DNA of 45,269 nt from the IMG/VR virus record IMGVR_UViG_3300024243_000033, positions 1 to 45,269 of that record; one strand, given 5' to 3'. The DNA comes from a virus. A program made the position numbers and the translations under genes. Position 1 is the stretch's first letter. Each line of letters begins with the position of its first letter. Under the pieces are notes generated by a model, which saw nothing but the letters and a program-made list of their open reading frames with translations, was not told the origin of the DNA and searched no databases. Below, in pieces: positions 229 to 16,476 of the stretch.

Positions 229-693
229 CTATTTAATAGCTTGCCAGATTTTGCCTGCATTTCCCATGATAGAACTGATGTCTACGCCTGCATCACTAGG
301 ATCATCGCCGAGGACACTTGACTTGTGTGCCTGACCGGGAGTCCCTGATTGTCTCATAGGCTCTGTGCCTTCAAACAGATCAACTCCGTTGTAGGCATCA
401 TTGCCAATTGAGTCCAGTAGCTTTCTGCGATGCTCTTGTAGTTTCTTATTCGTCTCTCGGGACTTACGCTGCATTTGCAAGTCTTCATTAAATAGGCTGT
501 CGTTGGGAATGTTATTTCTTTTTCCCAAACCCATGCTGGTCTTTACTTCTCTTGTTTCGACTATTGGTTGTTTAGCCAAGCCAGCAGTGACCTGAGATAC
601 GACCTCTGTAAGAAGACCCTCTTCTATGAGGACTTCTTGGATGCACTCTTTTACGACTGGCTTGATTAACTTCTTGAGTTGTGCTTTATTCAT
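229..693 (-). CDS. 154-aa protein with possible capsid-targeting N-terminus
   Basis: I do not recognise the family. The first 28 residues form a Lys/Leu-rich amphipathic helix (MNKAQLKKLIKPVVKECIQE) containing I-Q-E and L-I-E, which match the (I/L)-x-E cleavage pattern of T4 gp21-type prohead proteases. The rest is hydrophilic and probably disordered, with a basic stretch near residues 75-92 and a Gly/Ser/Asp-rich C-terminus. The start overlaps the 262-aa gene by 8 bases and has AAGGTG about 5 bases upstream. Lying between the protease/scaffold region and bS21, it may be an internal head protein; that is inference. Confidence 0.75.
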   Translation of the reverse strand: MNKAQLKKLIKPVVKECIQEVLIEEGLLTEVVSQVTAGLAKQPIVETREVKTSMGLGKRNNIPNDSLFNEDLQMQRKSRETNKKLQEHRRKLLDSIGNDAYNGVDLFEGTEPMRQSGTPGQAHKSSVLGDDPSDAGVDISSIMGNAGKIWQAIK

Positions 694-1474
694 TTATCAC
701 CTTAATTATTTCTTCGCTGATGAGGTTTATAAGTTTTTTAGAATCTGATTCGCTAACAAGGTTATCAAAATCACCTGCTAGGATTTTCTCTACCTGATCT
801 AATATTTTCATAACATTGGGCATTTGTTCGCTTTTGATTTTCTTAGCAAATGGGTTACCACTCAGTTGTTTAGAAATATTGCTTTCTATTTCCTGTCTAA
901 CTTTTTTTATATCAAGTTTGCCAAAGTTTCTAATTGGACCTAAAGCTTGATTTATTTCTGCTCTGGATAAGCTCTTTAGTCCACTTTGTTTTGGCTCTTC
1001 TTCTGGTTCTTCTTCTGGAGCGGCTGATGGTTGAGGTGCCTCTGACTCTTCTTCTGGTTCTTCTTCTGGCGCTACTGGTGTAGCTTGCTGTTCGTCGGGA
1101 ACATTAAAAGCACCTTTCTTCAAAGCCTTGACGAGTAGTTTTAAGGCTTGTGGGCTCTCTTCTTTCAAATTAGTCATGAATTGTTTTAACTCTGGAGCTT
1201 TGTCTAAAGTAAGGCTTAGATCTGCTCCTATCATTAATCTATCATCTTGCTCTTGCAGATCAATGTTTTGAGATTTGAGCATTGCCTCAAACTCGTCTAC
1301 GATAGCACCTGTGTCTGTTTCGATGCTAAACTTCTTAGCAAGATTGGAAATCAAATTGACAATTGTTGTCAATTCGGATGCCGGATAAGTCGCAGAAGAT
1401 TTCTTCTTTCTCTTAAAGAAGTCTCTAAAGCCTTCTACCATTAGTTGATGTTGGGGGTAACTACTCCAAGTCAT
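686..1474 (-). CDS. 262-aa acidic protein, scaffold (gp22) position
   Basis: It directly follows the prohead protease, the place occupied in T4 by gene 22 (major scaffold). Like a scaffold it is helical and strongly acidic, with a Glu/Pro-rich linker near residues 135-165 in which APEEEPEEE occurs twice. I see no clear gp22 sequence match, so the scaffold role rests on position and composition. The start at 1474 overlaps the protease gene by 14 bases and is supported by GAGG about 10 bases upstream. The alternative ATG at 1441 (MVEGFRDFF) has no SD. Unlike its neighbours, its N-terminus lacks an (I/L)-x-E site. Confidence 0.72.
   Translation of the reverse strand: MTWSSYPQHQLMVEGFRDFFKRKKKSSATYPASELTTIVNLISNLAKKFSIETDTGAIVDEFEAMLKSQNIDLQEQDDRLMIGADLSLTLDKAPELKQFMTNLKEESPQALKLLVKALKKGAFNVPDEQQATPVAPEEEPEEESEAPQPSAAPEEEPEEEPKQSGLKSLSRAEINQALGPIRNFGKLDIKKVRQEIESNISKQLSGNPFAKKIKSEQMPNVMKILDQVEKILAGDFDNLVSESDSKKLINLISEEIIKVINE
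995..1069 (-). repeat. 24-bp direct repeat pair encoding EEEPEEE
   Basis: The same 24 bases occur at 995-1018 and 1046-1069, 51 bases (17 codons) apart and in frame inside the 262-aa gene. Each copy encodes an acidic Glu/Pro block. Such a repeat can expand or contract by slippage, changing linker length without breaking the frame. Confidence 0.85.
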
Positions 1475-2066
1475 TTTTTAATACCTCGTTTAATAATCTG
1501 TTAATGCGATCTGCTTTAGTAAACACTTTGTTGTTGAACTCTTTTGCTTCTCTCATCATAAAGGCGTTTGGAGTTGAAGGCTCCGACACGAAGTCAAAGC
1601 AGATAAGTTGGAAGTCCTCTTGGACTATAACTTTTCCTGCGCCTTCTGAGACTGAACCCATCCCGCGAGAAGAGATGCCTAGCTTGACGCCATCTTCTAC
1701 GAGGGCGCGCAGGGTCTTGCCTGCGTCTGTGTTTAGAACTTTGACTTTGCCCATAACAGCCTTGTCTTCCATCCAAATGTCTGTGACCATGTGTGAAGCG
1801 TTCTTTAGGTTGATGACTGAATCATCAGGATGGTCTAGTTCGCCAAGTGCTCTTTTTTCTTTTACGAGCTTCTTGTAGTTCTCGACCTCTCGCATCAAAA
1901 CCTTGTGCGGATAGACGCGACCATTGCCGTTCTGGACATCTGCTTCTTGCAGTTTGCCAGTCAGCATCATTCCGCCGCTCTCGACGAAGCGCTTCTCGTC
2001 TTCTGTTAGGAGGTCTTTACAGACGCCGCCTTCACATAGTTCGTAGTATTCTCTTAGTAGTTTCAT
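1461..2066 (-). CDS. 21: Prohead protease, T4 gp21-like (family S77)
   Basis: This is the maturation serine protease that, in T4, is packaged into the prohead and cleaves scaffold, capsid and internal proteins after (I/L)-x-E. The herpes-protease-like fold is suggested by GGMMLTGKLQEADVQNGNGRVYP (residues 31-53), the catalytic-His segment GELDHPD (H79), a second His in the NASHMV segment (H92) and the nucleophile segment GISSRGMGS (S132/S133). The 201-aa length fits the family. The N-terminus MKLLREYYELCEGG carries L-R-E and L-C-E, consistent with self-cleavage. The 162-aa gene ends one base upstream of this start, and the gp22-position gene overlaps its end. Confidence 0.93.
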   Translation of the reverse strand: MKLLREYYELCEGGVCKDLLTEDEKRFVESGGMMLTGKLQEADVQNGNGRVYPHKVLMREVENYKKLVKEKRALGELDHPDDSVINLKNASHMVTDIWMEDKAVMGKVKVLNTDAGKTLRALVEDGVKLGISSRGMGSVSEGAGKVIVQEDFQLICFDFVSEPSTPNAFMMREAKEFNNKVFTKADRINRLLNEVLKNDLE

Positions 2067-2067
2067 C

Positions 2068-2556
2068 TTATATAGCCTTGTTCAATAGTGCTTGGGCGTT
2101 TAATAGCCTTTCTGCCAAGCCCCACCGCATACTTTGGTTCGCATCAGAGAGTTTGTTCATAAAGCCGCCACGTTGGTCATCTTTGGTATCAAAAATATCC
2201 AAGAGGGTTTCCCTATCAGGTATAGCAGCTAACGCTGTGCTTATTTGTTCCGGGGACACATCAACAATCTGCATCTCCTCCTCATTCATAGAAGCATCGT
2301 CGTAGGCAAGTCGGCTTTTATCCGTCTGGGTTGCGCTCCACAAGGCGAGGTTTGCTTTAGCTATCATAGTATCTTTCGAGTTTCCGCCGGTCTGTGCTTC
2401 AGCGAAGTGTAAATAGCTGTTAGGATCATAGGGGATGCCAAGAGCTTCTTTTGCATTTGTAGCAGCAGCAAACAGCTTGTCAAACTCTTCTTCGGTCGCG
2501 GGGTGGTATTCGCCCTCGTTTATAAACTTTTTCCAATTTTCGATTAATAGTTTCAT
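2068..2556 (-). CDS. 162-aa protein with possible capsid-targeting N-terminus
   Basis: I do not recognise the family. It begins MKLLIENWKKFINEGE, close in style to the T4 internal-protein leader MKTYQEFIAEA: a short amphipathic helix ending in I-N-E. The remainder is soluble, mildly acidic and helical, with no membrane segment or cysteines. It lies immediately upstream of the protease gene, where T4 has the small prohead-core genes 67 and 68. AAGGA stands about 8 bases before the ATG, just after a GC hairpin. A packaged prohead-core or internal protein is the best guess. Confidence 0.75.
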   Translation of the reverse strand: MKLLIENWKKFINEGEYHPATEEEFDKLFAAATNAKEALGIPYDPNSYLHFAEAQTGGNSKDTMIAKANLALWSATQTDKSRLAYDDASMNEEEMQIVDVSPEQISTALAAIPDRETLLDIFDTKDDQRGGFMNKLSDANQSMRWGLAERLLNAQALLNKAI

Positions 2557-2570
2557 TTTGTTTTCCTTAT

Positions 2571-2585
2571 GCGGGCGTTACCCGC
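2571..2585 (-). other. GC hairpin just before the 162-aa gene's ribosome site
   Basis: On the minus strand GCGGG, a 5-base loop TAACG and CCCGC form a perfect 5-bp all-GC stem. It ends 2 bases before the AAGGA site of the 162-aa gene. No T-run follows, so it is not a classical terminator. It could set mRNA stability or access to the ribosome site. Confidence 0.45.
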
Positions 2586-2590
2586 GCGAG

Positions 2591-2656
2591 TTAGCTTCCT
2601 TTGCAGCAACGACGGACAGGCTGTAAGCCCCATTTAGATAGTAGAAAGTTGTTCAT
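2591..2656 (-). CDS. Possible 21-aa ORF in gap upstream of the 162-aa gene
   Basis: The ATG at 2656 follows the stop of the 134-aa gene by 4 bases and has AGGA about 8 bases upstream, like the real starts around it. The product reads MNNFLLSKWGLQPVRRCCKGS. A different frame in the same gap (ATG near 2633) reads 26 codons and ends in an ATGA overlap with the 162-aa gene, but it has no SD. Either could be a leader or coupling peptide. I recognise neither. Confidence 0.35.
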   Translation of the reverse strand: MNNFLLSKWGLQPVRRCCKGS

Positions 2657-2660
2657 TGTT

Positions 2661-3065
2661 TTATCCTAGCATAGCGAGTATTGCTTTCATAGCAGTACGC
2701 TTCTTTTCTTTGTCATCGCTATAGCGAGCATCGTTTCCTATTTGATAAGCAATTCCCTTAATCATAGGGTCGGCAGACAAAAACTTTTGTACTATAGGTT
2801 CTGTTTTTGGAATGGGATCCTGACGATCTGTTATGTCTTGAAAAATTGAAAGAATGTAACCCTTAAATTGTTTTCCGGCTCCAGAATCGGTCGCTACATC
2901 TTTTTCAACATTGAACTTTCCTTTGGCAACTAGATCTTCGTAACTCTTGTAAAAGCCTGTTGGGCTTGCGAATCTCCACCAACTGGGAGTCTCTCTTTCT
3001 TCATTAACAGCCGCTTCTAGTTCTTCTTTGATTATCTGCTTAAGTCTGTTTTTTGTAATTTTCAT
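2661..3065 (-). CDS. 134-aa protein with MKITK...IIKEEL N-terminus
   Basis: The family is unknown. The first 22 residues (MKITKNRLKQIIKEELEAAV) are nearly the same as the start of the 273-aa protein at 11329-12150, although the bodies are unrelated. The basic helix followed by I-K-E fits a capsid-targeting and cleavage sequence. The body has a WWRFASPTGFYKSYEDL segment and a helical C-terminus. It ends with TAAAACAATG leading into the possible 21-aa ORF. The upstream neighbour is the small membrane protein, 3 bases away. Confidence 0.78.
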   Translation of the reverse strand: MKITKNRLKQIIKEELEAAVNEERETPSWWRFASPTGFYKSYEDLVAKGKFNVEKDVATDSGAGKQFKGYILSIFQDITDRQDPIPKTEPIVQKFLSADPMIKGIAYQIGNDARYSDDKEKKRTAMKAILAMLG

Positions 3066-3068
3066 TTT

Positions 3069-3410
3069 TTATTCCTCTGTGAAAAAATTGTCGTGCTTAT
3101 AATTATGCTTTATTTGAATTCCTTCATCTGAAAACACCATGTTTAAAACATAGGAGGTAGCAGATGAGAGACAACCAAATAGAAAAGCATTGACTATTGT
3201 AGCGTCAAACGTAAATAGTTCGGTCCAAGGAGAAAGCAGGAGCAAAAACCAACCGACGTGAAAGCCCATACACATGGGGCAGTGGAAAACCTTGCCGTAG
3301 CCCCGGTAGGACTCCTTGTGAGGTCTTAGTTTTTTTATTATGGGCATGTCGCTATAGACTAAAATTTGTGTTAGTCCGTAGGCTATCAAGACGAATAATA
3401 ATAGTTCCAC
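3069..3410 (-). CDS. Small membrane protein, YjcA/DUF1360-like, GTG start
   Basis: The protein has 113 aa and three hydrophobic segments (about residues 2-18, 50-62 and 70-92). Between the first two lies HCPMCMGFHVGW, a CxxC motif (C44, C47) followed by G-F-x-V-G, the pattern of DUF1360/YjcA-type membrane proteins. The start codon is GTG at 3410 with AGGAG 6 bases upstream, and no ATG fits better. A membrane protein inside the head-assembly cluster is odd. In T4 the prohead starts on the membrane, so an assembly role is conceivable, but that is only inference. Confidence 0.72.
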   Translation of the reverse strand: MELLLFVLIAYGLTQILVYSDMPIIKKLRPHKESYRGYGKVFHCPMCMGFHVGWFLLLLSPWTELFTFDATIVNAFLFGCLSSATSYVLNMVFSDEGIQIKHNYKHDNFFTEE

Positions 3411-3418
3411 TTGAACTC

Positions 3419-3994
3419 CTAGATTGTATACATGTAAGACATGGCGTAGCCATTATTGGGACCATAGCCGGGTCGAATAGAGCCCTGCTCGTCGCGCTGG
3501 GGGACCTCACCGAGTTCTGTTGAATCGGTCTTGTCTGGATCTGTGAATTCATCATCAACGCCGGAGACCACCGCTTCAACATTATCGTAGTAGGGCTTCT
3601 CTTCTTTGATGAATCTCTCAATGTTTACAAGAGCAAACTTAGCAGCGTTTAGTTTGCCGTCAGCAGCTTCTTGTAGCTTGGCTTCCATCGCTCCGTAATA
3701 AGAGCCGCCCTGGATTGATTCAGGAATAATAATGCCTTTGCGAGCAAGATGGGCGAATAGTCTGTTTTGTGCGCCGTAGGTAAAGTCGGTCATAGTCTGC
3801 TTTGGAAAGGCAGTAATCTTCTTATCTTTTCCAGAAAGCACGATGTCTAGGTCTCCGTGGTCGAAGATCATTAGGTCACCACTCAGGGATTTGCGAATGT
3901 CTAGTTCTAGCGTTACCGTGGGGGGTGGAGCTTTCGGCTTTATCGTAACCTTTATCGGCTCTGGGATTGGGACAATTCTAACTGTGATCGGCAT
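3419..3994 (-). CDS. 191-aa hypothetical protein in head-gene cluster
   Basis: I do not recognise it. The N-terminus is Pro/Lys-rich and likely a beta strand (VRIVPIPEPIKVTIKPKAPPP). A folded middle (about 30-125) contains SLSGDLMIFDHGDLDIVLSGKDKKI and a helical FALVNIERFIKEE segment. The C-terminus is acidic, then Gly/Tyr/Asn-rich. It overlaps the 276-aa gene by 17 bases. Between portal and protease it sits with prohead-core candidates. It lacks the targeting-type N-terminus. Confidence 0.72.
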   Translation of the reverse strand: MPITVRIVPIPEPIKVTIKPKAPPPTVTLELDIRKSLSGDLMIFDHGDLDIVLSGKDKKITAFPKQTMTDFTYGAQNRLFAHLARKGIIIPESIQGGSYYGAMEAKLQEAADGKLNAAKFALVNIERFIKEEKPYYDNVEAVVSGVDDEFTDPDKTDSTELGEVPQRDEQGSIRPGYGPNNGYAMSYMYTI

Positions 3995-4808
3995 CGTCGT
4001 GGATTTCCTTTACTAACTGCTGTGTTTTCATAATGGTCAGTAGGGTAGACTCGTTTAGGCTTGTTTCTTTTGATAGAGTCTCAAGTCTTTCTCTTACGGC
4101 TTGTGTTTTCTTGAGCATCTCTGGATCATTGGCGATCTCTTCTACCTTTGTAGCTTCGGATAGTGACTGTTTTAGTCTGCCGAGTTCTCTGTTGAAGTAG
4201 ATTTTTGCTTCAAGATCATCCTGAGAGAATGATGAGATGTAATTGTTGAGAAGGCTCTTCTGCTCTTCTAACAAAGAGCTTCCGTATTTTTCGTTGAACT
4301 TCTTTGTAAAAGTAGAGAAGGTAATAGAGTCAATGGGAGTCATCACCTGCTCTTCAAGCTTGCCGGTCATTCCTTCTACTATTCTTGCTTCAAGCATAAC
4401 AGATTGCTTTGGAGAGTTTGTGTTAAACATCTTAGCAATCGTTGCTAGTGACTTGTAGTTCGGCACAAAGTTGTTGAATGTGTCTGGGCTCAAGTCTTTA
4501 TTTATGTCGTTTATGACTACTGTCTGCTGCTTGAACAAGCCATCTGCGTCGATGAGACGCTTAGCAGCCATCGCCGCTTCCATAATCTTTTTGCTGGTGG
4601 GCTCGTCAAGATCTTGGTTTTCGTAAAGAGAGCGATAGCATTCCAAGTCCTTCTTTAACAGAGAATCGGTGGTGAAGTGCTTACGCACGATAGAGACAAC
4701 TTTTTCTTTTCTCTCGTTGTCTCCCTTTATGATTGCTACGGTAGCTTCGCGAGCGAGAGCCTCAAAAACAAAAGCCGTGTTGCGCTTCTTGTTGTGTCTA
4801 TTCTTCAT
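3978..4808 (-). CDS. 276-aa protein downstream of portal, prohead-core candidate
   Basis: The start is placed at 4808 (MKNRHNKKRNTAF), with GGAG about 8 bases upstream. The longer frame from 4844 would add 12 residues buried in the portal gene. The basic start MKNRHNKKRNTAFxxEAL resembles a conserved protein of marine T4-like phages, from memory. The rest is helical and charged, with coiled-coil-like stretches near residues 160-265. Its place right after the portal gene corresponds to T4 genes 67/68 (prohead core). It overlaps the portal gene by 11 bases. Confidence 0.8.
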   Translation of the reverse strand: MKNRHNKKRNTAFVFEALAREATVAIIKGDNERKEKVVSIVRKHFTTDSLLKKDLECYRSLYENQDLDEPTSKKIMEAAMAAKRLIDADGLFKQQTVVINDINKDLSPDTFNNFVPNYKSLATIAKMFNTNSPKQSVMLEARIVEGMTGKLEEQVMTPIDSITFSTFTKKFNEKYGSSLLEEQKSLLNNYISSFSQDDLEAKIYFNRELGRLKQSLSEATKVEEIANDPEMLKKTQAVRERLETLSKETSLNESTLLTIMKTQQLVKEIHDDADHS

Positions 4809-6795
4809 TGTTGTTCTCCGTTGTCTTAGTTTCCAAACTCTCAATGAGCATCTTTACTGAATGGTTGACCTCAAGAAGAGCCTGCTCTTCTTCGTGGTCT
4901 CGCAAGTAATTAGGGTCTTGCTCTTCATAAATGCCCCTGGCGAGAGATCTTAGTTCTGAGCCACCAAGATTATTGGTTCTGTAGGTGTTCATTTCGGGTG
5001 TCGGGACGCTGGCATAATTGCGAGTTCTAGCGCCTTGGGGTCTCTTATCGGTCGCTACTTTTTGGTAAGCTTTGCCTTTAGAGCCTTTGGTTACATATTT
5101 CTTGCCTGCTCTCGCACGCTTACCAAGGGACTTAGCTAGACGAGGCGAGTTGCGAGAACCCGGAGGTGCTGCTAAGAGTGCGCTCTCGTCTTCACCGCCA
5201 GCATCAGCGCCACCCTCGTCTCCACCAAGATCTAGATCGCCACCGCCTTCATCGCCGCCGAGATCTAAACCACCTTCACCGCCACCAAGATCGAGTCCGC
5301 CTGCTTCCCCGCCACCACCGTCACCGCCTGCGGCGGCTTCAGCGACACCCTCAAGGGCTGTGTCGTGTTTGCGATCGTAGTATTGTTCGCGTTGGTTGCG
5401 TAGGAACTCTTCGTGAGACATTCCAAAAATGTTGTCGGCAACCCAGCGGCGAGAGAAGTAACCCTCTGTTGCTGATGCTGCTATGTCGAACTTGGTCTTC
5501 CAATGCTCCAACTCTTGTAGTTCCGCAATCTTGCTTGGGTTATTTAGAGCAAGCTTGAAGTTTAGGAGATCTTCTCCTCTGTAGCCTAGAGTGTAAAGGT
5601 GGATGATGCCGACCTTCTCTAGCTCGTGAATCATAGAGCGCTGTAGGCGCTGGATGGTGCGAGCGAAACGAATGTCTTTCGTGGCTAGTGTTGTTTTATC
5701 TTCTTGTGCGCCGTCACCCATAGTGAGATAAGCCTGTGGGATCTTGATTCCAGAGAACATTTTGTCGCGGAGATACTTCACATCGTCAATCGCTGTAGTG
5801 TTTTGTCCACCGCCAAGGTTTTGGATGTCGGTCACAGAACCAGCACGAACTGGGATGTAGTAGTCCTCTTCAATAGACATTGGGTTGTAGCGAAGATCAA
5901 CGCGCCCAGTGTCTTTGTTTACAATAGAGTGTCTTTTTAGCTGGGACACAATCTTTTGCATAAACTGCTCAACCTCTTGTGGAGGAACAGCACCGACATC
6001 GATTTTGAAAACCTTACGCTCGGAAGAGCGAACAATGCGGTAAGCCATCATCGCATCTTCCATAAGAGTAAGCTGACGCCAAATGCGGCGGACGGGCTCC
6101 AGAACAGAAGTTCCGTAAGGAGCATACTTATCATTTCCAAGAATGCGGAAGTGGGCAACCTGCCAGTTCTCAAAAGTCATTCCAGCAGAGTTCCACTGGT
6201 ATTGAACGTAGTTTGGGTTTGTGGCGTCTAGCCCCTCTAGTCTCTCAACTTCTTGTAGAGGAATAGCGATCGTTGATTGGATTCCCTCGTTGTCGTCAAT
6301 GTCTAGGTATAAGATGAAGTCACCATACTTACACATCGTTCGGCACCAACCGAAAAGATTGTGTTCGATGTTCATAATCTTATGGTAAAGGATGTTCAAG
6401 ACTGCTTTGATTTCGTCGTTGCGGCACTTGATGTTTAGCATTGGAGATAGGGCAGAGAATGTGGTCATCTCATCTGCGTAGATGTCGAGAGCAGAAGCTA
6501 GCTCTGGCATATATTCCATCTGATCAAAGTCTATGTAGCGCTCTGAACGCCTCTGGTTTGCGATAGCGTTTGCTGCGATCGTATCTAGAGGGTTGTAGGA
6601 CTGCTTCTTGAACTGCTGTCCTGAAGCAGTCTTGAACCTAGTAGAGTATTTGTCAAGATGTTGTCTACGAATCTTGCGACCAGATTCTGATCTGTAACTA
6701 ACGATAGGTCCTGAGAACAGGCGAGTAAGAGACTTAAATAACTGGGAGTCTCTGTTAGCTGGGTTCTTGCCTTGTTTTGGGTTTTTGGGTGCCAT
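4798..6795 (-). CDS. 20: Portal protein, T4 gp20-like
   Basis: This is the dodecameric head-vertex portal, through which DNA enters and to which the tail joins. T4 gp20 hallmarks are present: ELASALDIYADE (99-110), FRILGNDKYAPYGTSVLEP (216-234), RIVRSSERKVFKIDVG (253-268), the PMSIEEDYYIPVR segment (305-317) and LGGGQN (327-332). It is larger than T4 gp20 (665 versus about 524 aa). Residues about 487-537 are a Gly/Asp/Glu low-complexity run of LDLGG units, followed by a basic, disordered tail (543-615) and an acidic helical end. The core fold appears complete by about residue 480. The terminase gene ends just upstream. Confidence 0.95.
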   Translation of the reverse strand: MAPKNPKQGKNPANRDSQLFKSLTRLFSGPIVSYRSESGRKIRRQHLDKYSTRFKTASGQQFKKQSYNPLDTIAANAIANQRRSERYIDFDQMEYMPELASALDIYADEMTTFSALSPMLNIKCRNDEIKAVLNILYHKIMNIEHNLFGWCRTMCKYGDFILYLDIDDNEGIQSTIAIPLQEVERLEGLDATNPNYVQYQWNSAGMTFENWQVAHFRILGNDKYAPYGTSVLEPVRRIWRQLTLMEDAMMAYRIVRSSERKVFKIDVGAVPPQEVEQFMQKIVSQLKRHSIVNKDTGRVDLRYNPMSIEEDYYIPVRAGSVTDIQNLGGGQNTTAIDDVKYLRDKMFSGIKIPQAYLTMGDGAQEDKTTLATKDIRFARTIQRLQRSMIHELEKVGIIHLYTLGYRGEDLLNFKLALNNPSKIAELQELEHWKTKFDIAASATEGYFSRRWVADNIFGMSHEEFLRNQREQYYDRKHDTALEGVAEAAAGGDGGGGEAGGLDLGGGEGGLDLGGDEGGGDLDLGGDEGGADAGGEDESALLAAPPGSRNSPRLAKSLGKRARAGKKYVTKGSKGKAYQKVATDKRPQGARTRNYASVPTPEMNTYRTNNLGGSELRSLARGIYEEQDPNYLRDHEEEQALLEVNHSVKMLIESLETKTTENNNEE
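5185..5337 (-). repeat. Gly/Asp LDLGG repeat region in portal gene
   Basis: Imperfect repeats of 12-24 bases encode LDLGGGEGG, LDLGGDEGGG and LDLGGDEGG in succession. The run is GC-rich compared with the surroundings. It looks like a slippage-prone minisatellite encoding a flexible acidic linker. Confidence 0.8.
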
Positions 6796-6803: not shown

Positions 6804-8384
6804 TCACTTTATTATCCACATATGTTGGGAATATAGATTTTGTGCTTCACGTATTTTACTATTTGTGTCGTCGCCTGTGTAGCCTATTTGTCCTCTTATC
6901 TGTGTGTTCAAGGTAGTTCTAGAAGTCATAATAGAATCGACAAAGGCTTTTTGATAATTGAGGTCTCTTGAGTTTGATTGAATTGCTGTGTCTCTGACCC
7001 AGCAACAAATCGCAAGAGCCATAACCAAGTCATCGTTGTAACCTCGCATTGCCTGTGGCTTGCCATTATTCCAAATGAAAGTCCTAAATTCATTTGTTAA
7101 ACGTGAAGAATACGTTTTAATTAGTTTGTTTCTTATAAACTCTTCCAACTTGGCTACTATGAGGGGTCTAGTCTTGCTCGTCGTAGAGAAACCGGCGATA
7201 GTTCCGGTCTGATGCTCGCCGAGATGTTGGTCGATGTATTGGTGTGTAGATTTAACAGACCAGTATAGATTTGGATAAGCATACTCTATGAGTTTGTCTA
7301 TTACGGTGTAGCCAATAGAGTTGTTTTCCACGACCATCATAGCATTTCCAAATTCTCGACCGACTTGATTGAGCATGTTGGCGTAGAGGTCGGGTGTAGG
7401 TTTGCCCTGGTATTCTCCAATGATCTCCATTGTTTCAAGTTTCAGAATATGGAATGTAGAGCTATCAGCGCCGTCGCCTCGCGCAACATCAGCAGCGATA
7501 AGATAATTACAACTAGGATCGTGCTCTTCCCAAATCCAGAAGTTTCTATCAAAGCCAGTCCTATGCTTTGGTTCTTTGACCAAAGACATCATCCATTCGA
7601 TCCCAGCAGGATCAATAACAGTCTCACCAGAGGTGTTGAAGTTGCACTCCAACTCCTGAGCGATCTGTCTTCTGGACATGTTCTTGGTTTCTTTTTTGAA
7701 CCACTCTTCATCTCTCTCTGGATGAACATCCCACATAAGCGTTGTGAGTTTAAAATTGTTGTCGTTACTCTCGGCACCTACGCAGGTTTTGTGGAACCAG
7801 TTACCGACACCATTCGGCGTGGAGATGGCGATGCAGCGACCACCAGTAGATAGCGTTGGATAGAGACCAGTCCATAGATCATCGAGACCTTCGATGTGTG
7901 CTGCCTCGTCAAGCACGAGTAGTGATAGTGCTTCGGAACGACCAGCATCACCAGAGGTAGAGGCAGCCTTGATGGAAGAACCATTAGACAACTCAAAAGA
8001 CGTGCGGTTGTCTGTCGTAATGCTTGCAATCCTGATCCATTCAGGAAGGTTCTTCATTATGTTCTTGACTTTGCGAACCAAGTTACCTGCGGTTTCAAAC
8101 TTGGTAGCCATAACAAGGATGGCTTTGTCGCGGTGAAACAGCATCATCCAAACAATGTAGCCAGCCGTAATCGTTGAGATGCCTAGCTGACGACCCTTGT
8201 TGATGATGTTGAAGCGGTAGTCGTTAAAGTCGTTTAGTAGGACATCCTGATAATCATAGGTTTTAAACAACATAAGCCCGTGCATCGGGTGAGAGATGCG
8301 GGCATAGTTTTTCAGGAAGTAAGAAGGATCTTTACCGCACTTAACGACTTCTTTGAGAATTTGTTTTTTTGTTAGTCTCGGCAT
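6804..8384 (-). CDS. 17: Terminase large subunit, T4 gp17-like
   Basis: This is the packaging motor: an ATPase that translocates DNA and a nuclease that cuts concatemers. The ATPase has Walker A KGRQLGIST (63-71), Walker B LLVLDEAAH (155-163) and the AISTPNG coupling motif (186-192). The nuclease domain has RNase H-like acids at D299 (AADVARGDGAD), E353 (VVENNSIG) and D451/D452 (YNDDLVMAL). At 526 aa it is shorter than T4 gp17 (610) but has all motifs. No recognisable small terminase is in the window. The gene lies 10 bases after the 182-aa gene and 8 bases before portal. Confidence 0.96.
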   Translation of the reverse strand: MPRLTKKQILKEVVKCGKDPSYFLKNYARISHPMHGLMLFKTYDYQDVLLNDFNDYRFNIINKGRQLGISTITAGYIVWMMLFHRDKAILVMATKFETAGNLVRKVKNIMKNLPEWIRIASITTDNRTSFELSNGSSIKAASTSGDAGRSEALSLLVLDEAAHIEGLDDLWTGLYPTLSTGGRCIAISTPNGVGNWFHKTCVGAESNDNNFKLTTLMWDVHPERDEEWFKKETKNMSRRQIAQELECNFNTSGETVIDPAGIEWMMSLVKEPKHRTGFDRNFWIWEEHDPSCNYLIAADVARGDGADSSTFHILKLETMEIIGEYQGKPTPDLYANMLNQVGREFGNAMMVVENNSIGYTVIDKLIEYAYPNLYWSVKSTHQYIDQHLGEHQTGTIAGFSTTSKTRPLIVAKLEEFIRNKLIKTYSSRLTNEFRTFIWNNGKPQAMRGYNDDLVMALAICCWVRDTAIQSNSRDLNYQKAFVDSIMTSRTTLNTQIRGQIGYTGDDTNSKIREAQNLYSQHMWIIK

Positions 8385-8990: not shown

Positions 8991-9308
8991 TTATTCCTTT
9001 TTGGTACTATTGACACCTGAAGTTACTTGTTTCTTTAACATATTGAAAATTCTTTCCAAAACAGAACGTTTAGTCTGTAGTTCTACGCCCGGCATCTCTG
9101 CAAGGTCGAGTAGAAATTGGTCTATCTGTTGGATAATGCCGCGCTCCATGTTTGAAAGTTCCGGGTTTGCCTCAAGTCTATCTTCTTTTCCTGCTTTACC
9201 AAAAGCAGAACCACCCATAGACTTTGTTTTTAATTTTACTTTTTCGTCACCCTCTTCTTGTTCTTTTAGAACTTCTCTGATTAGCTCTCTTAAATCTTCA
9301 GCTTTCAT
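8991..9308 (-). CDS. 105-aa protein with possible capsid-targeting N-terminus
   Basis: A small soluble protein of no known family. It starts MKAEDLRELIREVLKEQEEG, an amphipathic helix with I-R-E and L-K-E sites like the other candidate packaged proteins here. The middle (KTKSMGGSAFGKAGKEDR) is flexible and basic. Residues 50-95 form two helices (NMERGIIQQIDQFLLDLAEM and the SVLERIFNMLKKQV segment). It overlaps the end of the zinc-ribbon gene by 11 bases. Confidence 0.75.
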   Translation of the reverse strand: MKAEDLRELIREVLKEQEEGDEKVKLKTKSMGGSAFGKAGKEDRLEANPELSNMERGIIQQIDQFLLDLAEMPGVELQTKRSVLERIFNMLKKQVTSGVNSTKKE

Positions 9309-10088: not shown

Positions 10089-10458
10089 ATCTTAATCCGT
10101 AGGTCTCTTCAAAGCGCTGTATAATCAGAGCCTTGTCTTGTTTGAACTCTTTTATTATAACTTCTTTTTCTGCTCTCGTTAAGTCCTTTATCTCGGCTTG
10201 TCGTGCTTCGTATTCCAACTCTAGCTCTTCTATCTCAATACGATACTGCTCAAGAGCTTCATCACGCAGACGCAACTCTTCGGTATGTAGGGATTGTAGT
10301 GTGCTTATCTGGTCTTTTAATGACTGCTCTGCAATCTCGTGTGCTTTGATAATGTTGCGTACATCATACTGCGACTTGCCAAATACGACAAGAAGGAGAA
10401 GGACAAGTCCAATCTCCTTCCAATGTTTTAAGCAGAATGCTAGAATCTTTTCTTTCAC
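10078..10458 (-). CDS. Inner-membrane spanin, Rz-like, GTG start
   Basis: A 126-aa type II membrane protein: a short basic cytoplasmic end (MKEKILAFCLKHWKE), one membrane helix (about 15-27, IGLVLLLLVVFG), then a continuous charged coiled coil to about residue 115. This is the layout of lambda Rz and other i-spanins, which span the periplasm to help fuse inner and outer membranes at lysis. It starts with GTG at 10458 in a GTGA overlap with the holin gene. The next gene overlaps its end, as Rz1-type partners often do. Confidence 0.78.
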   Translation of the reverse strand: MKEKILAFCLKHWKEIGLVLLLLVVFGKSQYDVRNIIKAHEIAEQSLKDQISTLQSLHTEELRLRDEALEQYRIEIEELELEYEARQAEIKDLTRAEKEVIIKEFKQDKALIIQRFEETYGLRYVE

Positions 10459-10658
10459 TCAAGTCCCTTGAGCTTTACAATAGCGTCAATTACGGATTGA
10501 CCACCGAGATAAAGACCAGAGATAATAACCCAGTCTGCTGATTCTAGTCCGCCCCAAGCCATAAGACCTGTAGCAGTGAGCCACACAAGTAGTTTGCGGG
10601 AAGTTAGTTTTTGTATGCCGCTGTCAAGTAGTGCTTGCTTCTGCTCTTTGCTCATCAT
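10455..10658 (-). CDS. Holin-like protein, two transmembrane helices
   Basis: It has 67 aa: a charged N-terminus, two membrane helices (about 23-39, LLVWLTATGLMAWGGL, and 43-58, WVIISGLYLGGQSVI) and a short Lys-containing tail. Size, topology and position before a spanin pair fit a class II-type holin, which opens the inner membrane at lysis time. The double ATG at 10658/10655 overlaps the stop of the 225-aa gene, so two starts three bases apart are possible. No endolysin is seen nearby. Confidence 0.75.
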   Translation of the reverse strand: MMSKEQKQALLDSGIQKLTSRKLLVWLTATGLMAWGGLESADWVIISGLYLGGQSVIDAIVKLKGLE

Positions 10659-11332
10659 TTAGCACCCATACTCTTTAGTTGCTCGTAGATAAGACCAATG
10701 AGAACTGGCAAGGACATAACACCAATTAGCGGCGCCATCTTCTGTAATGCATCGGCAACAACTTGCATATTCTCAGCATTGATGTTTTCGATGCCTTCTT
10801 GCATTGCGCCGTATGGGGCGCCGCCGCCTCTCATTTTACTCATCAATTTGCCAAGTGCTTCATTTGCCATGTCTTGAGGCTTGCGTCCAGGGCGGTCCAT
10901 CATGATTTCTTTGATTATGTCTAGCAGGTCGTCTTCGGACATCTTGAACATTTCTGCTTCTGCCATAATCTCTTCTTTGATTAGAGCGAGTAGCTCTGAC
11001 TTTTTGATTTTCATTGTGTTTTGTCCCTTTTTAGATTCGAAGAAAGCCGATGGGTTTTTCGCCATGTGGTCTCTCAACTTGGCAGCCTCTTCTTTGTTTA
11101 GTGTAATCCTGAAGCCGCCATTGTGACGCCTCATTCCGCTCAAGTCGAAACCGGCAAGCTCAAGGCGGTCAAGTGTAGCCGGGTGGCGCACCGAAAAATC
11201 AACAGTGTCAATTTCTATAGAGGGTGCTGTTCCCTCTTTCTTCATTTCTGCTGGAATAGTGTTGTCGTCGGACGGATCGTCCATAATCTCTTCTTTGATT
11301 AGAGCGAGTAGCTCTGACTTTTTGATTTTCAT
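10655..11332 (-). CDS. 225-aa protein carrying its targeting N-terminus twice
   Basis: The ORF begins MKIKKSELLALIKEEIM and repeats the same 17 residues from residue 107. The first unit has a small folded-looking domain (RHPATLDRLELAGFDL, then MRRHNGGFRITL). The second has an acidic helical part, a Gly-rich segment and a hydrophobic C-terminal helix (LIGVMSLPVLIGLIYEQL). Each leader contains I-K-E, a gp21-type cleavage pattern. The internal ATG at 11014 has AGGGA about 9-10 bases upstream, so the second unit may also be made separately as 119 aa. The first start has AAGGA and follows the 273-aa gene with a 4-base overlap. The function is unknown. Confidence 0.8.
   Translation of the reverse strand: MKIKKSELLALIKEEIMDDPSDDNTIPAEMKKEGTAPSIEIDTVDFSVRHPATLDRLELAGFDLSGMRRHNGGFRITLNKEEAAKLRDHMAKNPSAFFESKKGQNTMKIKKSELLALIKEEIMAEAEMFKMSEDDLLDIIKEIMMDRPGRKPQDMANEALGKLMSKMRGGGAPYGAMQEGIENINAENMQVVADALQKMAPLIGVMSLPVLIGLIYEQLKSMGAK
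10963..11015 (-). repeat. 53-bp exact direct repeat, copy downstream in the gene
   Basis: Identical over 53 bases to 11281-11333. It encodes residues 107-123 (MKIKKSELLALIKEEIM) plus one base before the ATG. The offset is 318 bases, exactly 106 codons, so the reading frame is kept. The absence of any mismatch points to a recent duplication or to gene conversion. Confidence 0.95.
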
Positions 11333-11333
11333 T
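11281..11333 (-). repeat. 53-bp exact direct repeat, copy at the gene start
   Basis: Partner of the copy at 10963-11015, covering codons 1-17 of the 225-aa gene. Only the leader is duplicated. The protein that follows is different in each copy. Confidence 0.95.
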
Positions 11334-12150
11334 TTTTATCCTTTGCGATCTTTGTCGCCGTTGCGTACATTACGCTTTCGGCGTCATCGCCATAGCGTTG
11401 CTTGAAGTCACCCTTAGATTTCTTCATACCTTTAACTACTCTCTCTTTTTCCTTTTTTTCAGGTTTAGAGAGTTTTTTCTCTTCCATCTTCTTGTTTACA
11501 GCAGAATAGAATCTATCAAGCTTGTCTTGGGGTGTCTTCTTATCTGTCTTGCTTAGCTTGCGAGTGGAGGGTGTTTCTTTTTTCTTTCCAAATTCTCCAC
11601 CAAACAAGCCCTCGCTTAATGCATTAGCATAGTCTTCTGGTGATTGTCCGCTCATCCAAGCATCGTAGGGATTTGGAGAGTTATCATCGATCTGAGCACC
11701 ATTATTGTAAGCAGTAGCTATCCATCTTTCAAAAGACATTTGCTGACCGGCAACAGCCTGGGCATCATCCATCTTTTGCTGATCTCTAAACTGCTCTGAT
11801 TCTCTAACAGGTTCGGGCATCGGGCGAGCTTTTGGTCTGTAAGCGCGACCAAGTTGTCGTTGTGCTGCGCCAATAGAGACGCCAGACTCGCCTGTGAATG
11901 CGGAGGATAAGAAATCAATGCTAACATCTAGTCCATCAATAGAATCTGTTAGTTTGCCGATTGCGTCAAGAAGCGCGGGGTCAGATTGGATCTCTTCCAT
12001 TATTGCTTCTTTTGTAATTTCTTTGCTTTCCATCGCCTCTACTTCGGCGCGGACTTCTTCGCCAAACATCTCCTCGACCTCTTCATTCGTGAGGACTACT
12101 TGGAGTTCTTCTTTGATAATTTGTTTTAGTTTGGCTTTTGTTATTTTCAT
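11329..12150 (-). CDS. 273-aa protein with MKITK leader and YATATK C-terminus
   Basis: The N-terminus MKITKAKLKQIIKEELQVVL matches that of the 134-aa protein at 2661-3065; the bodies differ. The middle is acidic and disordered, with a PMSFERWIATAYNNG-like folded part around residues 130-175. The C-terminus is very basic (170-273) and ends VVKGMKKSKGDFKQRYGDDAES, then VMYATATKIAKDKK, a closing motif I have seen in other marine phage proteins of unknown role. A targeting leader plus a basic DNA-binding-like tail fits an internal, DNA-associated capsid protein (inference). The ATG overlaps the stop of the gp46 relic as TAATG. Confidence 0.8.
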   Translation of the reverse strand: MKITKAKLKQIIKEELQVVLTNEEVEEMFGEEVRAEVEAMESKEITKEAIMEEIQSDPALLDAIGKLTDSIDGLDVSIDFLSSAFTGESGVSIGAAQRQLGRAYRPKARPMPEPVRESEQFRDQQKMDDAQAVAGQQMSFERWIATAYNNGAQIDDNSPNPYDAWMSGQSPEDYANALSEGLFGGEFGKKKETPSTRKLSKTDKKTPQDKLDRFYSAVNKKMEEKKLSKPEKKEKERVVKGMKKSKGDFKQRYGDDAESVMYATATKIAKDKK

Positions 12151-12329
12151 TATTGATTTACCTCTGCGAATCCGCTTTCTTTTTCAATCACAATCTGCAT
12201 GTCTACACAATCCTTGAGAGAATCAAGGTGAGAAATCAGCAGGACGTTCTTGAAATACACCTTAATTAGTTCCAAGATCCGAATAAATCCAGCCATATTC
12301 TCTTCATCAATAAAAGATAGGTTAAAAGG
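12150..12329 (-). pseudogene. Relic of a second gp46/SbcC C-terminus, in frame after the stop
   Basis: After the TAA of the nuclease gene (12330-12332) the same frame stays open for 59 codons. It encodes a divergent copy of the gene's last 54 residues: DEENMAGFIRILE against DEEHMEGFVRMLE, then LLISHLDSLKDCVDM in both. By eye 33 of 54 positions are identical, with many silent changes in the shared block. It holds the ABC H-loop (ISHLD) but no Walker or signature motif. Its stop overlaps the next ATG as TAATG, the join expected of an intact operon. It is probably the end of a former resident gene left by recombination. A short product from an internal ATG (NMAGF) cannot be excluded. Confidence 0.85.
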
Positions 12330-15300
12330 TTACATTCTTACCTTTGCAAAGCCATCAATTTTGCTGATCTCTATCGTCATATCTACGCAGTCTTTGAGAG
12401 AATCTAAATGTGAAATAAGCAAAATAGTGCCAAATTGACTCTTCACCACTTCAAGCATTCTTACAAAACCCTCCATATGTTCTTCATCTAAGGAGGTTGC
12501 TGGTTCATCAAGTACAAAAACTGAGCCGCGAGGCAAGTTTGTTACTGCAACCATAGCGATGCGAATAGCCATAGCAGCCATAGTCTTCTCCGCACCTGAC
12601 GCCATCTCAATAGGGCGAGCCTCGTGCTTGGGGTGCTTGATAAAAATGTCAAACTTGTTGCCTGTAGTCTCAAAAAAGATTTCAAAATCTACAACATTCG
12701 CTAGAATCTTTGCGATCTCTTCGTTGATTACAGGCAACTTCTGTTTAATGATGTCGTAAGCAATCCCGTTCGGATGCATACACCGCAAGAATAGATCATA
12801 CGATGAATACTCCGACTGGATTGTCTCAAACTCTAGTCTTCTTTCTTTGAGGTCTTGGATTCGTTGTTCTTCTGATCCGAGAGATTTGTAAAAATCAATC
12901 TTCTTCTGGCTATTTGACTCAACTTGTTCCTTAACGGATTGCGTTTCTTTGACATATAGTTCTTTCTCCTTTAGTAGTTTTTCTAGATTCTCAATTGCTT
13001 CTTTGTTGTCGTTATAAGAAGCTTGCTTTTGTGCTAGCTCGTCCATCAAAGCTTTGTGCCTATCAAGGGCAGACTTGCGGCGCTCAATACTCAATTGTAG
13101 GTCTTTGATAAAACCATCAGTTTCGCTTTGCTTTTTTTCAAGCTTACGATACTTGTCTAGGTGATCTCTAACAACCTGTGGGTTTAAGTTAGAGAGTCTG
13201 TCCTGTAGCTCTTCGATCTTGCTTTCCGTTTCAGGAATAACTGCTGTGGCTACATGGGCATCACGAATGAACTTACAAGCAGGGTAGGTCGTGCCGCACG
13301 GAATGTCTTCTAATAACTTTTTCTTTTCAGTCGCAACCTCTATCAGTTGTGTGTGAGTTTGAAGGCTACTTTCAGCTTCTTCAATGCTCACAAGAGAACT
13401 TGTAAGATTGTTGTAATCTAGAGTTTCTAGAAGATTTGAGATCTTATCAAATCGTTCTCTTTCACTATGTAGTCTGCTCGCATCATCAATGATTGAATCT
13501 GATAAAGAAATTATCTTATTTTTTGTCTTTTTGATCTCGGACTGAACCTCGTGGATGTCGATCACATCCGTTGGGATGTTGGAGATCTTGATAGAGAGGT
13601 TTTGGACGTTCTGGCTTGCGAAGGCGAGCTTTGCCTCAAGCCTGATCTTGTCGGCTTCGACCTCCAAGATTGCCGCCTTATGCTGCTCTATGGCGTCCTG
13701 AGCCTTTTGAATCTCCTTATCGTAGTCGCGACCCTGTAGCTTCTTGATTAGAACTTTGGACGACTGGGCGTCTTCTTTGGCAAACTTGAACTTCTTATCG
13801 AAGAACTGGAGATCCAAGAACTTAGCGATAATCTCCTTGCGCTTAGTCGAACCCTCATTAATAAACGCAAGAGCGCCGTGCTGTGATGAGAGAGACGAGA
13901 TAAGGAAATCATCAATCGTCCCAAAGTGCTTACGGATGTTCGCGTCAGTCTGGTTGCGGGTCGTGCCGTTTAGTGATGTAGTCTCATCTGTAACAGGGTC
14001 ATAGACAGAAAAATCAAGATGAGTCTTTGCCTCAATAGAGGTTTCGCCCTTTGACTTCTTTTCGTACTTCTCGACCTTGCGATGAACTGTGTAGGACTTA
14101 TCGCCAATCGCGATTGTGATCTTTCCACCACCCCAGTCGCGATTCTGATTTACGACATTAACATTCTTGCGCTCGTTTTTGCTTGTTGTGTTAAAGACTG
14201 TAAATAGAATTGCGTCAATGATAGATGACTTGCCTGAGAAGTTCTTACCAAAGATGCCCGTAATGCCGTTTACTTTGCGGAAATCGATAGAGTTGTTTTC
14301 TCCGTAGTTGAACAGGTTAGACCACTCAAAGTTTACAAGTTCCCAATTCACATTACGACTAACATCCTCTTTTGCTTCTACTTGCTGGTTGTATTTGGAA
14401 TTGAGTTCATAAATCGTAGACATAACATCAGGCTTAACCTGATAGTCTTTGAGGTATTCTGAAATAAGTTCCTGCTGGATCTCTGGATCTCGGAGGTTCT
14501 GTATTCCAATACCATCAGTAATCTCTTCAACATTCCCGCGTTTACCAGCAGATCTGTTTAAGAATGAGATCGACTCTGGCTTAAACTTATGGCGAGCAAC
14601 ATCAACAGCCTTACGCATCACATCGAGCGATAGGTTGTTGTCGCTGACGATACGCAGGCGGGCTCTATTGGGCACCGATGCTCTACGGGGAATCTTGCCT
14701 GTTGGGGTTAGCTCTACTGTGATAAATGGGCGCGGGTTCTGGAGCGTAAAGTGCTCGATGTCCCAATCATCTTTGGAGCCAATTGTCCAGATAGAGAAGC
14801 CCTTGTCGTCACTCTCTCCGTGGTTCTGCTGAACTGTGGAACCAGCGTAGTATACACGACCAGCATCGTCAAGAAACTGGCGCTTGTGAATGTCGCCAAG
14901 CATCGCAAAGTCAAACTCTTCAAAGATGGAGAGATTGTCTTCTCCGTGCTCCATCGTCCAACCAGCGTCAGTTTGGCAGTTAGAGATGGCGCCGTGATAG
15001 AGGGCGATGTTAATCTTGTCTGGATCGGTGGGCTGAACCCAATTGTCTCGGTCAAACACCGATAAGACATTCAGGACGACATTGCCGTAAGCAAGGGAGG
15101 TCTCGCCAGAGTTCTTTAGCAGACGAATGTGGGCACTATCGAGTGCCTGGACGATTGGCGTAATAGCATCTTGGCGATTGCTGTTCTTTAGGTTGCCGTC
15201 GTGGTTTCCTAAAATAATAAAAGTGGTCGCAATCTTGCTTAGATTGCTGAAAAAGTCTGACGCCATCTCTACAAATTCTGGTGAGATTTGTGTCTTTGTG

Positions 15301-15455
15301 TGTGCGATGTCGCCGCAATGAATGATGTAGTCTACGTCTTGCTCTCGCAAGGTCTCGTACATCTGCTCAAAGCAGGCGCGATAATCTTCGTGATACTTCA
15401 GATTCTTGATGTGAGTATCAGCAATATGTGCGATTTTAACAGGTGTGCGTTTCAA
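12330..15455 (-). CDS. SbcD-SbcC (gp47-gp46, Mre11-Rad50) fusion nuclease, TTG start
   Basis: One 1041-aa chain joins the nuclease and ATPase that T4 encodes as genes 47 and 46. Residues 1-350 are a calcineurin-like phosphoesterase with metal motifs IADTH (D13, H15), HCGD (48-49), GNHD (83-86), YHG (153-155) and LGDIH (186-190). Residues 370-1041 are Rad50-like: Walker A GKNFSGKSS (403-411), long coiled coils, a hook-like CGTTYPAC (C720, C727), signature ASGAEKT (about 950), Walker B VFVLDEPATSLDEE (about 980) and H-loop LLISHLD (about 1010). The complex resects DNA ends for recombination-driven replication. The start is TTG at 15455 with GGAG 5 bases upstream. A sigma70-type promoter lies 125-153 bases upstream. 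Confidence 0.95.
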   Translation of the reverse strand: MKRTPVKIAHIADTHIKNLKYHEDYRACFEQMYETLREQDVDYIIHCGDIAHTKTQISPEFVEMASDFFSNLSKIATTFIILGNHDGNLKNSNRQDAITPIVQALDSAHIRLLKNSGETSLAYGNVVLNVLSVFDRDNWVQPTDPDKINIALYHGAISNCQTDAGWTMEHGEDNLSIFEEFDFAMLGDIHKRQFLDDAGRVYYAGSTVQQNHGESDDKGFSIWTIGSKDDWDIEHFTLQNPRPFITVELTPTGKIPRRASVPNRARLRIVSDNNLSLDVMRKAVDVARHKFKPESISFLNRSAGKRGNVEEITDGIGIQNLRDPEIQQELISEYLKDYQVKPDVMSTIYELNSKYNQQVEAKEDVSRNVNWELVNFEWSNLFNYGENNSIDFRKVNGITGIFGKNFSGKSSIIDAILFTVFNTTSKNERKNVNVVNQNRDWGGGKITIAIGDKSYTVHRKVEKYEKKSKGETSIEAKTHLDFSVYDPVTDETTSLNGTTRNQTDANIRKHFGTIDDFLISSLSSQHGALAFINEGSTKRKEIIAKFLDLQFFDKKFKFAKEDAQSSKVLIKKLQGRDYDKEIQKAQDAIEQHKAAILEVEADKIRLEAKLAFASQNVQNLSIKISNIPTDVIDIHEVQSEIKKTKNKIISLSDSIIDDASRLHSERERFDKISNLLETLDYNNLTSSLVSIEEAESSLQTHTQLIEVATEKKKLLEDIPCGTTYPACKFIRDAHVATAVIPETESKIEELQDRLSNLNPQVVRDHLDKYRKLEKKQSETDGFIKDLQLSIERRKSALDRHKALMDELAQKQASYNDNKEAIENLEKLLKEKELYVKETQSVKEQVESNSQKKIDFYKSLGSEEQRIQDLKERRLEFETIQSEYSSYDLFLRCMHPNGIAYDIIKQKLPVINEEIAKILANVVDFEIFFETTGNKFDIFIKHPKHEARPIEMASGAEKTMAAMAIRIAMVAVTNLPRGSVFVLDEPATSLDEEHMEGFVRMLEVVKSQFGTILLISHLDSLKDCVDMTIEISKIDGFAKVRM

Positions 15456-15467
15456 GTTATCTCCAGG

Positions 15468-15563
15468 CTAGAAACAAATGTTGTAAAAGGCAATTCCAGC
15501 GAACCAGCCGACATACATCGCGATGCCATCTACCAAAGCGTTAAAACAAAACTTGATCATCAT
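15468..15563 (-). CDS. Small hydrophobic ORF, 31 aa, between promoter and nuclease gene
   Basis: It reads MMIKFCFNALVDGIAMYVGW then FAGIAFYNICF, a single likely membrane helix after a Lys. The ribosome site GAAGGAG is the strongest in this region, 3 bases before the first ATG (15563) and 6 before the second (15560); the second is the better start. It is the first ORF after the promoter and ends 12 bases before the TTG of the nuclease gene, so it may also couple translation. No family is known to me. Confidence 0.6.
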   Translation of the reverse strand: MMIKFCFNALVDGIAMYVGWFAGIAFYNICF

Positions 15564-15579
15564 TATCTCCTTCACCTAT

Positions 15580-15608
15580 AATATAACGCAGGGAGGGCGA
15601 TTTGTCAA
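15580..15608 (-). promoter_or_regulatory. Sigma70-type promoter for the 31-aa ORF and nuclease gene
   Basis: The minus strand has a perfect -35 TTGACA (15603-15608), a 17-base spacer and -10 TATATT (15580-15585); a shifted TATTAT also fits. It sits in one of the window's few real gaps, directly before GAAGGAG and the 31-aa ORF. It fits an early-type promoter read by host RNA polymerase. Confidence 0.82.
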
Positions 15609-15612
15609 GCGA

Positions 15613-16476
15613 TTAGAGGCGTCCTCTACTCTTTCTCTTGTTCAAGAGTTCATAAGCAACTGACCACTCAAGCGGCAATATAGCATAGGGAGAGTCTGCG
15701 GTGTATCCCTGAAAGAGCTTGTTGTTGTCGTAAGCCCAAAAGCCAGAAGAGCCTTTTGCGCCCTTGCCCATAACAAGATTTTCTAATCTTTCATCCCCTC
15801 CCGGTCCAGACAAGAAAGTTGCCCTCAAGAGTGTTTCATAGTCTTTCTTTGAAATTCCCATAAAAGGCATTGTTTCATCATCTGGAATTTGAGAAGCAGG
15901 CACGTAGGCAAACCCCTTTAGATTACCTTTACTTGGATCTCCTCCAATGAAGATTCCGCGACCGGGTGAAATGGGAGCAACATCTACAGACCCGCCATAG
16001 GTTTTGATAATTTCTTTGATCTTGGCGTCCACTTCTTCTGGTGTTGTAGCGGTGCCGCTTTCTGCTTCAGCAGCAGCCATCTGCATAAAGCTCTGGACAT
16101 CTTTAGATTGCTCGGCGCTTTGTTGGAGTGAAGATCTTACTTTTTGAGCGTCGGCGGCTGCGTCAGAACTGAGTTCGCTATAGTCAAAGACGCCTTGCTC
16201 TACAGCACCACCCAACATTCCAACTAAAAATAGAATGCCTATCCTCTTTGATCTAGGCATTTTGTTTAGAATTTCTGGATTTGATTCGACGGCATCTACT
16301 TCTTTCTCTATTTGATCATCACTTTTGTTTGGAAAGAATTTATTTTTTAGATTCTTTATGGTGTCGAGCACACCCTCTTCAATAATCTGATTTGTGGTAT
16401 TCTCGATGAGAAGATCTGCCTGTATCTCCTCAAGGATAATGTTTTTTATTTGTTTCTTTGTAAAAGCGTGTTTCAT
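15613..16476 (-). CDS. 287-aa protein with targeting-type N-terminus and a membrane-like segment
   Basis: No family recognised. It starts MKHAFTKKQIKNIILEEIQA, a basic helix with I-L-E, and has a further L-I-E at 23-25. Residues about 80-95 are hydrophobic (IGILFLVGMLGGAV), then an Ala/Ser/Glu-rich helix (105-145) and a globular C-terminal half with a GRGIFIGGDPSKGNLKGFAY segment. It lies between primase and the promoter, 4 bases from the primase stop, without a clear SD, so it is probably coupled. A packaged protein with a membrane-active part would fit an ejection role; that is speculation. Confidence 0.75.
   Translation of the reverse strand: MKHAFTKKQIKNIILEEIQADLLIENTTNQIIEEGVLDTIKNLKNKFFPNKSDDQIEKEVDAVESNPEILNKMPRSKRIGILFLVGMLGGAVEQGVFDYSELSSDAAADAQKVRSSLQQSAEQSKDVQSFMQMAAAEAESGTATTPEEVDAKIKEIIKTYGGSVDVAPISPGRGIFIGGDPSKGNLKGFAYVPASQIPDDETMPFMGISKKDYETLLRATFLSGPGGDERLENLVMGKGAKGSSGFWAYDNNKLFQGYTADSPYAILPLEWSVAYELLNKRKSRGRL

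Follow-up and report, generated by a model that had tools for sequence, protein, structure and literature searches.

The internal proteins IPI, IPII, and IPIII of phage T4, together with Alt, carry a short N-terminal leader, the capsid-targeting sequence (CTS), on unrelated bodies, and an S77-family prohead protease, gp21, is encoded nearby. The motif recognized by T4 gp21 is L/I-x-E, with the cut following the glutamate, and in IPIII a stretch of 10 N-terminal residues is enough for head targeting (PMC9026906). An Asp in place of this glutamate prevents the processing of IPIII yet leaves its targeting intact (PMC9026906). Here, we describe leaders of similar form in an uncultured T4-like phage, represented by a 45,269-bp IMG/VR fragment (IMGVR_UViG_3300024243_000033; "the window" denotes this whole stretch), and in its relatives. 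Two classes of leader precede bodies of many unrelated families. Very probably, these leaders are T4-type CTSs that gp21 trims, with the cargo being kept in the head and many cargos being delivered to the host. Both steps, targeting and cleavage, have been demonstrated for T4, whereas in this clade they are inferred from sequence.

Two other systems invite comparison. The inner-head and ejection proteins of phages phiKZ and SPN3US likewise involve a related prohead protease, cleavage after x-E, and many packaged proteins (PMC5694885, PMC9026906). There, the motif is S/A/G-x-E and the propeptides mostly exceed 100 residues, whereas here the motif is I/L/V-x-E and the leader spans about 14 residues. 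Propeptides of the giant phages contain several redundant cleavage sites (PMC9026906), and I/L/V-x-E sites downstream of the leaders are similar. Polyvalent proteins (Iyer et al. 2017, PMC5512222) overlap with the present cargos in their domains, specifically in ART-PolyVal and a ParB-like match. Polyvalent proteins, however, are large multidomain chains, whereas the cargos here are mostly small and bear a portable leader.

The two leader classes

The class-1 leader has the consensus MKITKxxLKQIIKE^EL, in which the caret marks the putative cut. A position-specific scoring matrix (PSSM) for this class was trained on other contigs, with the window and the gp21 loci held out. It matched 111 of 1480 genes in 80 gp21 loci versus none of 1194 random viral genes, the latter taken from about 80 viral contigs drawn by an arbitrary 15-mer (a 17-mer had yielded only 4 contigs). 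The top random gene scored 2.3 bits, true leaders score 20-46 bits, and 0.05 matches are expected from shuffled N-termini. Class 2, with the consensus MKL(I/L)(M/I/L)ENW(R/N)x(F/Y)(L/I/V)xE (in short, MKLLxENWRxFLxE^), behaves in the same way: its PSSM matched 63 of 1404 non-protease genes in gp21 loci versus 0 of 1188 random genes. The leader sits N-terminally in almost all cases.

These profiles supply what the motif does not. A preliminary description of the window had pointed to N-terminal amphipathic helices containing (I/L)-x-E. The bare motif is present at 14 of the 36 N-termini in the window versus 22.6% of internal 24-mers (binomial P = 0.02) and is too weak as evidence by itself. For the bare motif, chance is an adequate explanation: short A-rich open reading frame starts, encoding K, I, L, and E, would now and then contain it. 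As the origin of the leader family, chance is refuted by the gap in scores and by the empty random and shuffled controls, and we give it next to no credence.

Six window genes, all on the minus strand, carry leaders. Four are of class 1. The gene at 11329-12150 encodes a 273-aa protein with leader MKITKAKLKQIIKE^EL (12109-12150; 46 bits). The gene at 2661-3065 encodes 134 aa, with leader MKITKNRLKQIIKE^EL (3024-3065; 42 bits) on an unrelated body, and 10 of its 12 BLAST matches cover the leader only. The gene at 10655-11332 encodes 225 aa and contains MKIKKSELLALIKE^EI twice (11291-11332 and 10973-11014; 26 bits). The gene at 15613-16476 encodes 287 aa, and its leader, MKHAFTKKQIKNIILE^EI (16429-16476; 21 bits), has a 2-residue insertion and is retained in the relatives L105 and L109. 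An AlphaFold2 model of the last protein, from a three-sequence alignment, has a mean predicted local distance difference test score of 55.8 and a low-confidence N-terminus. All remaining window genes score below -12 bits with the class-1 PSSM. The 162-aa product of 2068-2556 bears a class-2, T4-like leader, MKLLIENWKKFINE^GE (2515-2556; 39 bits with the class-2 PSSM). The 105-aa product of 8991-9308 bears a class-1-like leader, MKAEDLRELIRE^VL (9273-9308), that is two residues shorter than the full-length form MKLNNKILKEMVREALSE found in the relatives L049 and L096.

The preliminary description had listed eight such proteins. All eight N-termini exist as described, and the six above stand as leader-bearing proteins; the other two do not. 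Specifically, the gene at 1461 encodes gp21 itself, and the gene at 229 belongs to the conserved genes of the head module and has its own, invariant type of N-terminus.

The claim that 10655 has its leader twice was borne out, with at least 50 nucleotides exactly identical between the copies. Moreover, the second half of 10655 exists as a free-standing leader gene in L018 (87-548). Two-leader proteins therefore resemble cargo fusions, which gp21 might split, or else nested genes with internal starts. A second, internal leader also appears in L004 (747-1547), L094 (10904-11521), L134 (365-952), and L356 (contig G006).

Anatomy and predicted cleavage of the leaders

Across 240 distinct class-1 leaders, the information content stays high as far as residue 16; beyond that point it drops to less than 1 bit. 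Because the seed pattern had forced a glutamate at residue 14 (E14), the anatomy was redone with residues 1-10 as the sole anchor. In this set, I, V, or L occupies residue 12 in 90 of 90 leaders and E occupies residue 14 in 87 of 90, while residues 13, 15, and 16 are more variable than either. At the P3 position of (I/L/V)-x-E, class 1 has I or V, whereas L predominates in class 2. Mean charge switches from +3.8 in the leader to -2.5 after it in class 1, and from +1.4 to -2.0 in class 2. Of the class-1 bodies, 62% have a further I/L/V-x-E within residues 17-26, versus about 13% deeper in the body.

We infer the following mechanism. Residues 1-13 would make up a short and mostly basic helix through which the protein docks into the prohead core. 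The protease gp21 would then cut on the C-terminal side of the (I/L/V)-x-E glutamate, which is residue 14 in either class. Once freed, the mature protein would remain in the head alongside the DNA, and many cargos would subsequently enter the host. Because the leader alone would be needed for packaging, cargos could be exchanged freely, above all in a slot beside gp21.

The T4 leaders of ipII and ipIII (MKTYQEFIAE) likewise close with (I/L)-x-E. Class 2 comes closer to the T4 CTS (MKTYQEFIAEA), in that its (F/Y)(L/I/V)xE end (FINE, FLTE) resembles FIAE; class 1 shares only the (I/L)-x-E core. Both consensus sequences differ from that of T4, and 14 residues lead up to and include the glutamate here, compared with 10 in T4.

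The major capsid protein counterpart, gp23, has sites that match the cut-site motif of the leaders. The window stops short of gp23, and 17 gp23 proteins from leader contigs were compared. All have conserved L-x-E sites within the first 61 residues: LTE before G, LLE before N, and L[RK]E before A, S, or Q occur in all 17, and LLE before G in most. These sites are comparable to LTE65 before A in T4 gp23.

The gp23 sites bear on an alternative in which the leaders dock into the prohead core but stay uncleaved, as permanent scaffold- or DNA-binding helices whose I-x-E reflects helix geometry. Conservation that runs two residues beyond the predicted cut would suit such a helix, as would leader copies that are internal or, rarely, C-terminal; leader-like helices at C-termini that reach 10 bits number only 4, yet that is above shuffles. 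We regard this alternative as unlikely, given that two sequence-unrelated classes both place I/L/V-x-E at residues 12-14, that conserved L-x-E sites are present in gp23 on these contigs, and that the basic charge before the site gives way to an acidic one beyond it.

Interchangeable bodies, the cargo slot, and gp21

The bodies behind the leaders have no common family, as the preliminary description had noted; profile searches and BLAST clustering agree on this point. BLAST sorts the bodies into 210-222 families, most of them with a single member; class-2 bodies make up 48 families. When 120 representatives are aligned, the only consensus left is MKITKxxLKQIIKEEL. Leaders also swap, with homologous bodies bearing either class: MKLILENWNNFVNEEGELEEAMAKNIKAEKLPNGFYRF in L013 versus MKLTKTRLKQILKEELKEAMEKDIKVEKLDNGFYRF in L039, and, among GNAT-like homologs, class 1 in L098 versus class 2 in L154.

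Codon identity among leaders of the same genome is 0.535, versus 0.441 expected, so the leaders share descent. The same values mostly rule out recent copy-and-paste of leaders, the duplication within 10655 being the exception. Shared descent could also be read as the trace of a single old protein family, whose bodies have diverged past recognition and whose leader is the most conserved part. That reading is hardly credible, since the bodies span unrelated folds (pentapeptide helix, GNAT, ADP-ribosyltransferase [ART], and S-adenosylmethionine [SAM] lyase) and homologous bodies bear different leader classes.

One place stands out. Between a conserved gene (3069-3410, minus strand) and gp21 lies a cargo-exchange slot, which in the window spans 2067-3068 and is occupied by 2068 and 2661. 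Across 31 loci, 42 of 44 genes in this slot carry leaders, on bodies of nearly 20 unrelated families. Long contigs (146-242 kb) have 5-24 leader genes each, frequently in tandem clusters. Unlike T4, then, these phages combine many leader genes per contig, two classes side by side, and a cargo slot flanked by gp21 and a conserved gene. The sequences support a system of T4-type CTSs in which the consensus is new, there are two leader classes, and the cargo set is far larger and quickly exchanged.

The window's gp21-like prohead protease, predicted earlier and confirmed here, is encoded at 1461-2066 on the minus strand (Peptidase_S77, PF03420, 2.6e-30; phrog_207, 6.7e-55). A DNA pattern found 17 leader contigs of at least 50 kb, and 15 of them encode PF03420, versus 2 of 15 random contigs (Fisher P = 4e-5). 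The other two, G027 and G038, are incomplete: G027 ends just beyond terminase, and G038, collinear with the window from 16480 on, ends on the head-module side. Both end before the head module, and we rejected them as examples of leader phages lacking gp21. A distant 484-kb leader-bearing phage also encodes an S77 protease. The proposal of an interchangeable-cargo system tied to gp21 agrees with all of the comparative sequence tests that were run.

The association with gp21 also speaks to a different destination for these proteins. An amphipathic, basic N-terminus would suit targeting elsewhere in the infected cell, to a membrane, a replication site, or a chaperone, with gp21 uninvolved. We judge this option improbable, more so than an uncleaved docking helix, in view of the gp21 association, the slot adjoining head genes, the I/L-x-E at a fixed place, and the T4 precedent.

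Several points nonetheless weigh against packaging with gp21 trimming at E14. Residues 15-16 (E, then L/I) are conserved as well, though unneeded for a cut after E14, which makes the position of the cut the main uncertainty: the true cut may fall at the downstream I/L/V-x-E of residues 17-26. Part of the association between gp21 and the leaders comes from shared ancestry, and the random contigs were drawn without matching for habitat. Ejection into the host is the weakest step because most bodies are of no known function.

Cargo repertoire and the head module

Most cargo bodies have no recognized domain, and Pfam and PHROG profile searches recognized no anti-defense or take-over protein among the window's own cargo. 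Relatives of the window phage are more informative. Their cargos include, above Pfam cut-offs, a Qnr/MfpA-like pentapeptide protein (3.9e-32), a SAM lyase (4.9e-13), ART-PolyVal (6.6e-8), and GNATs. Two weaker matches, to a protein kinase (5.4e-6) and to ParB_N (4e-4), do not reach their cut-offs. SAM lyase is the activity of the T3 anti-restriction SAMase, and T4 Alt is a packaged ART, like the ART-PolyVal cargo here. Cargos of all these types resemble proteins injected by phages (PMC5512222, PMC9026906).

On balance, we lean toward the notion that an uncultured, mostly marine T4-like lineage uses address-tag delivery as a general system, with two interchangeable leader classes, 5-24 cargo genes per long contig, a dedicated exchange slot next to the protease, and double-leader proteins that gp21 may split. 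Its virions would be preloaded with a rapidly changing set of proteins for anti-defense and take-over (SAM lyase, ART, kinases, GNATs, and the Qnr-like pentapeptide protein). If so, the tag alone predicts hundreds of new injected effectors, many probably aimed at bacterial defenses, and the proteins injected besides DNA become searchable by sequence; the T4 internal proteins, by comparison, are a small set from one phage group. In addition, the two leaders would be new candidate tags by which proteins could be loaded into phage heads.

Current annotation misses these leaders, as the leader consensus has one weak match among 50,697 public phage records and a single matching contig among 84,980 bacterial and archaeal genomes. 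No paper in an open-access literature search mentions the leader strings, and tblastn with a class-2 leader against named phages gave no match, a 20-residue query having little power. The single genomic match, L384 (PBSV01000031.1), is a phage-like contig in an Opitutia metagenome-assembled genome, with both classes clustered; it is perhaps a host hint or a binning error.

Individual relatives add further cargos. L353 (6356-8320; G034) encodes a 655-aa class-2-leader protein in which the SAM lyase domain is accompanied by about 490 unexplained residues. In L330 (5584-8982; G038), seven class-2-leader genes of the MKKLLTEWRKFLKE type stand in a row, and one of them (7302-7832) contains the ART-PolyVal domain comparable to Alt. 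A recurrent leader cargo starting CPPATQDLKLNTKNRD occurs in L384 (2406-2843), with homologs in L382 (G016), L339 (G024), and L330, and matches proteins labeled high potential iron-sulfur protein in other phage records. The 484-kb phage (L406; LR756508.1, 213852-225920) has another leader style, MKLQNILYESE, MVKFKSLLFESD, and MQKLQDLLFEA, beside ART-like bodies (LYHVTD), and elsewhere in its genome one class-1-like leader and the S77 protease.

On the minus strand of the window, tail and baseplate genes lie at the right, followed by replication-type genes, with the head module at the left. The terminase (6804-8384, minus strand), the portal (4798-6795, minus strand), and the tail genes are named by our reading of sequence resemblance and gene order rather than by a database call. 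The N-terminus of gp21, MKLLREYYELCE^GG (2031-2066), is possibly a self-processed propeptide rather than cargo.

The head-module gene at 229-693 (minus strand; 71 homologs) lies in the place of scaffold gp22 and core proteins. Its N-terminus (622-693) holds I-x-E and L-x-E sites but is of its own fixed type, and 53-95% identity to 12 relatives rules the gene out as variable cargo. Between it and gp21 lies a variable gene (686-1474, minus strand) with 4 homologs only, whose N-terminus, MTWSSYPQHQLMVE^GF, has E14 but does not match the leader consensus; its product is a candidate core or cargo protein. The counterpart place in L008, L013, and L068 holds differing proteins, some with class-1-like leaders. 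Since this place is variable, gene 229 may be the real gp22 counterpart. Across L008, L010, L038, L055, and L068, the proteins at this place are unrelated and range from 140 to 926 aa; in L023, the gene is absent. Finally, an 82-aa basic protein, bS21-like by eye only, adjoins gene 229 in L008 (11704-11952), L010 (6286-6534), and L012 (11452-11700).

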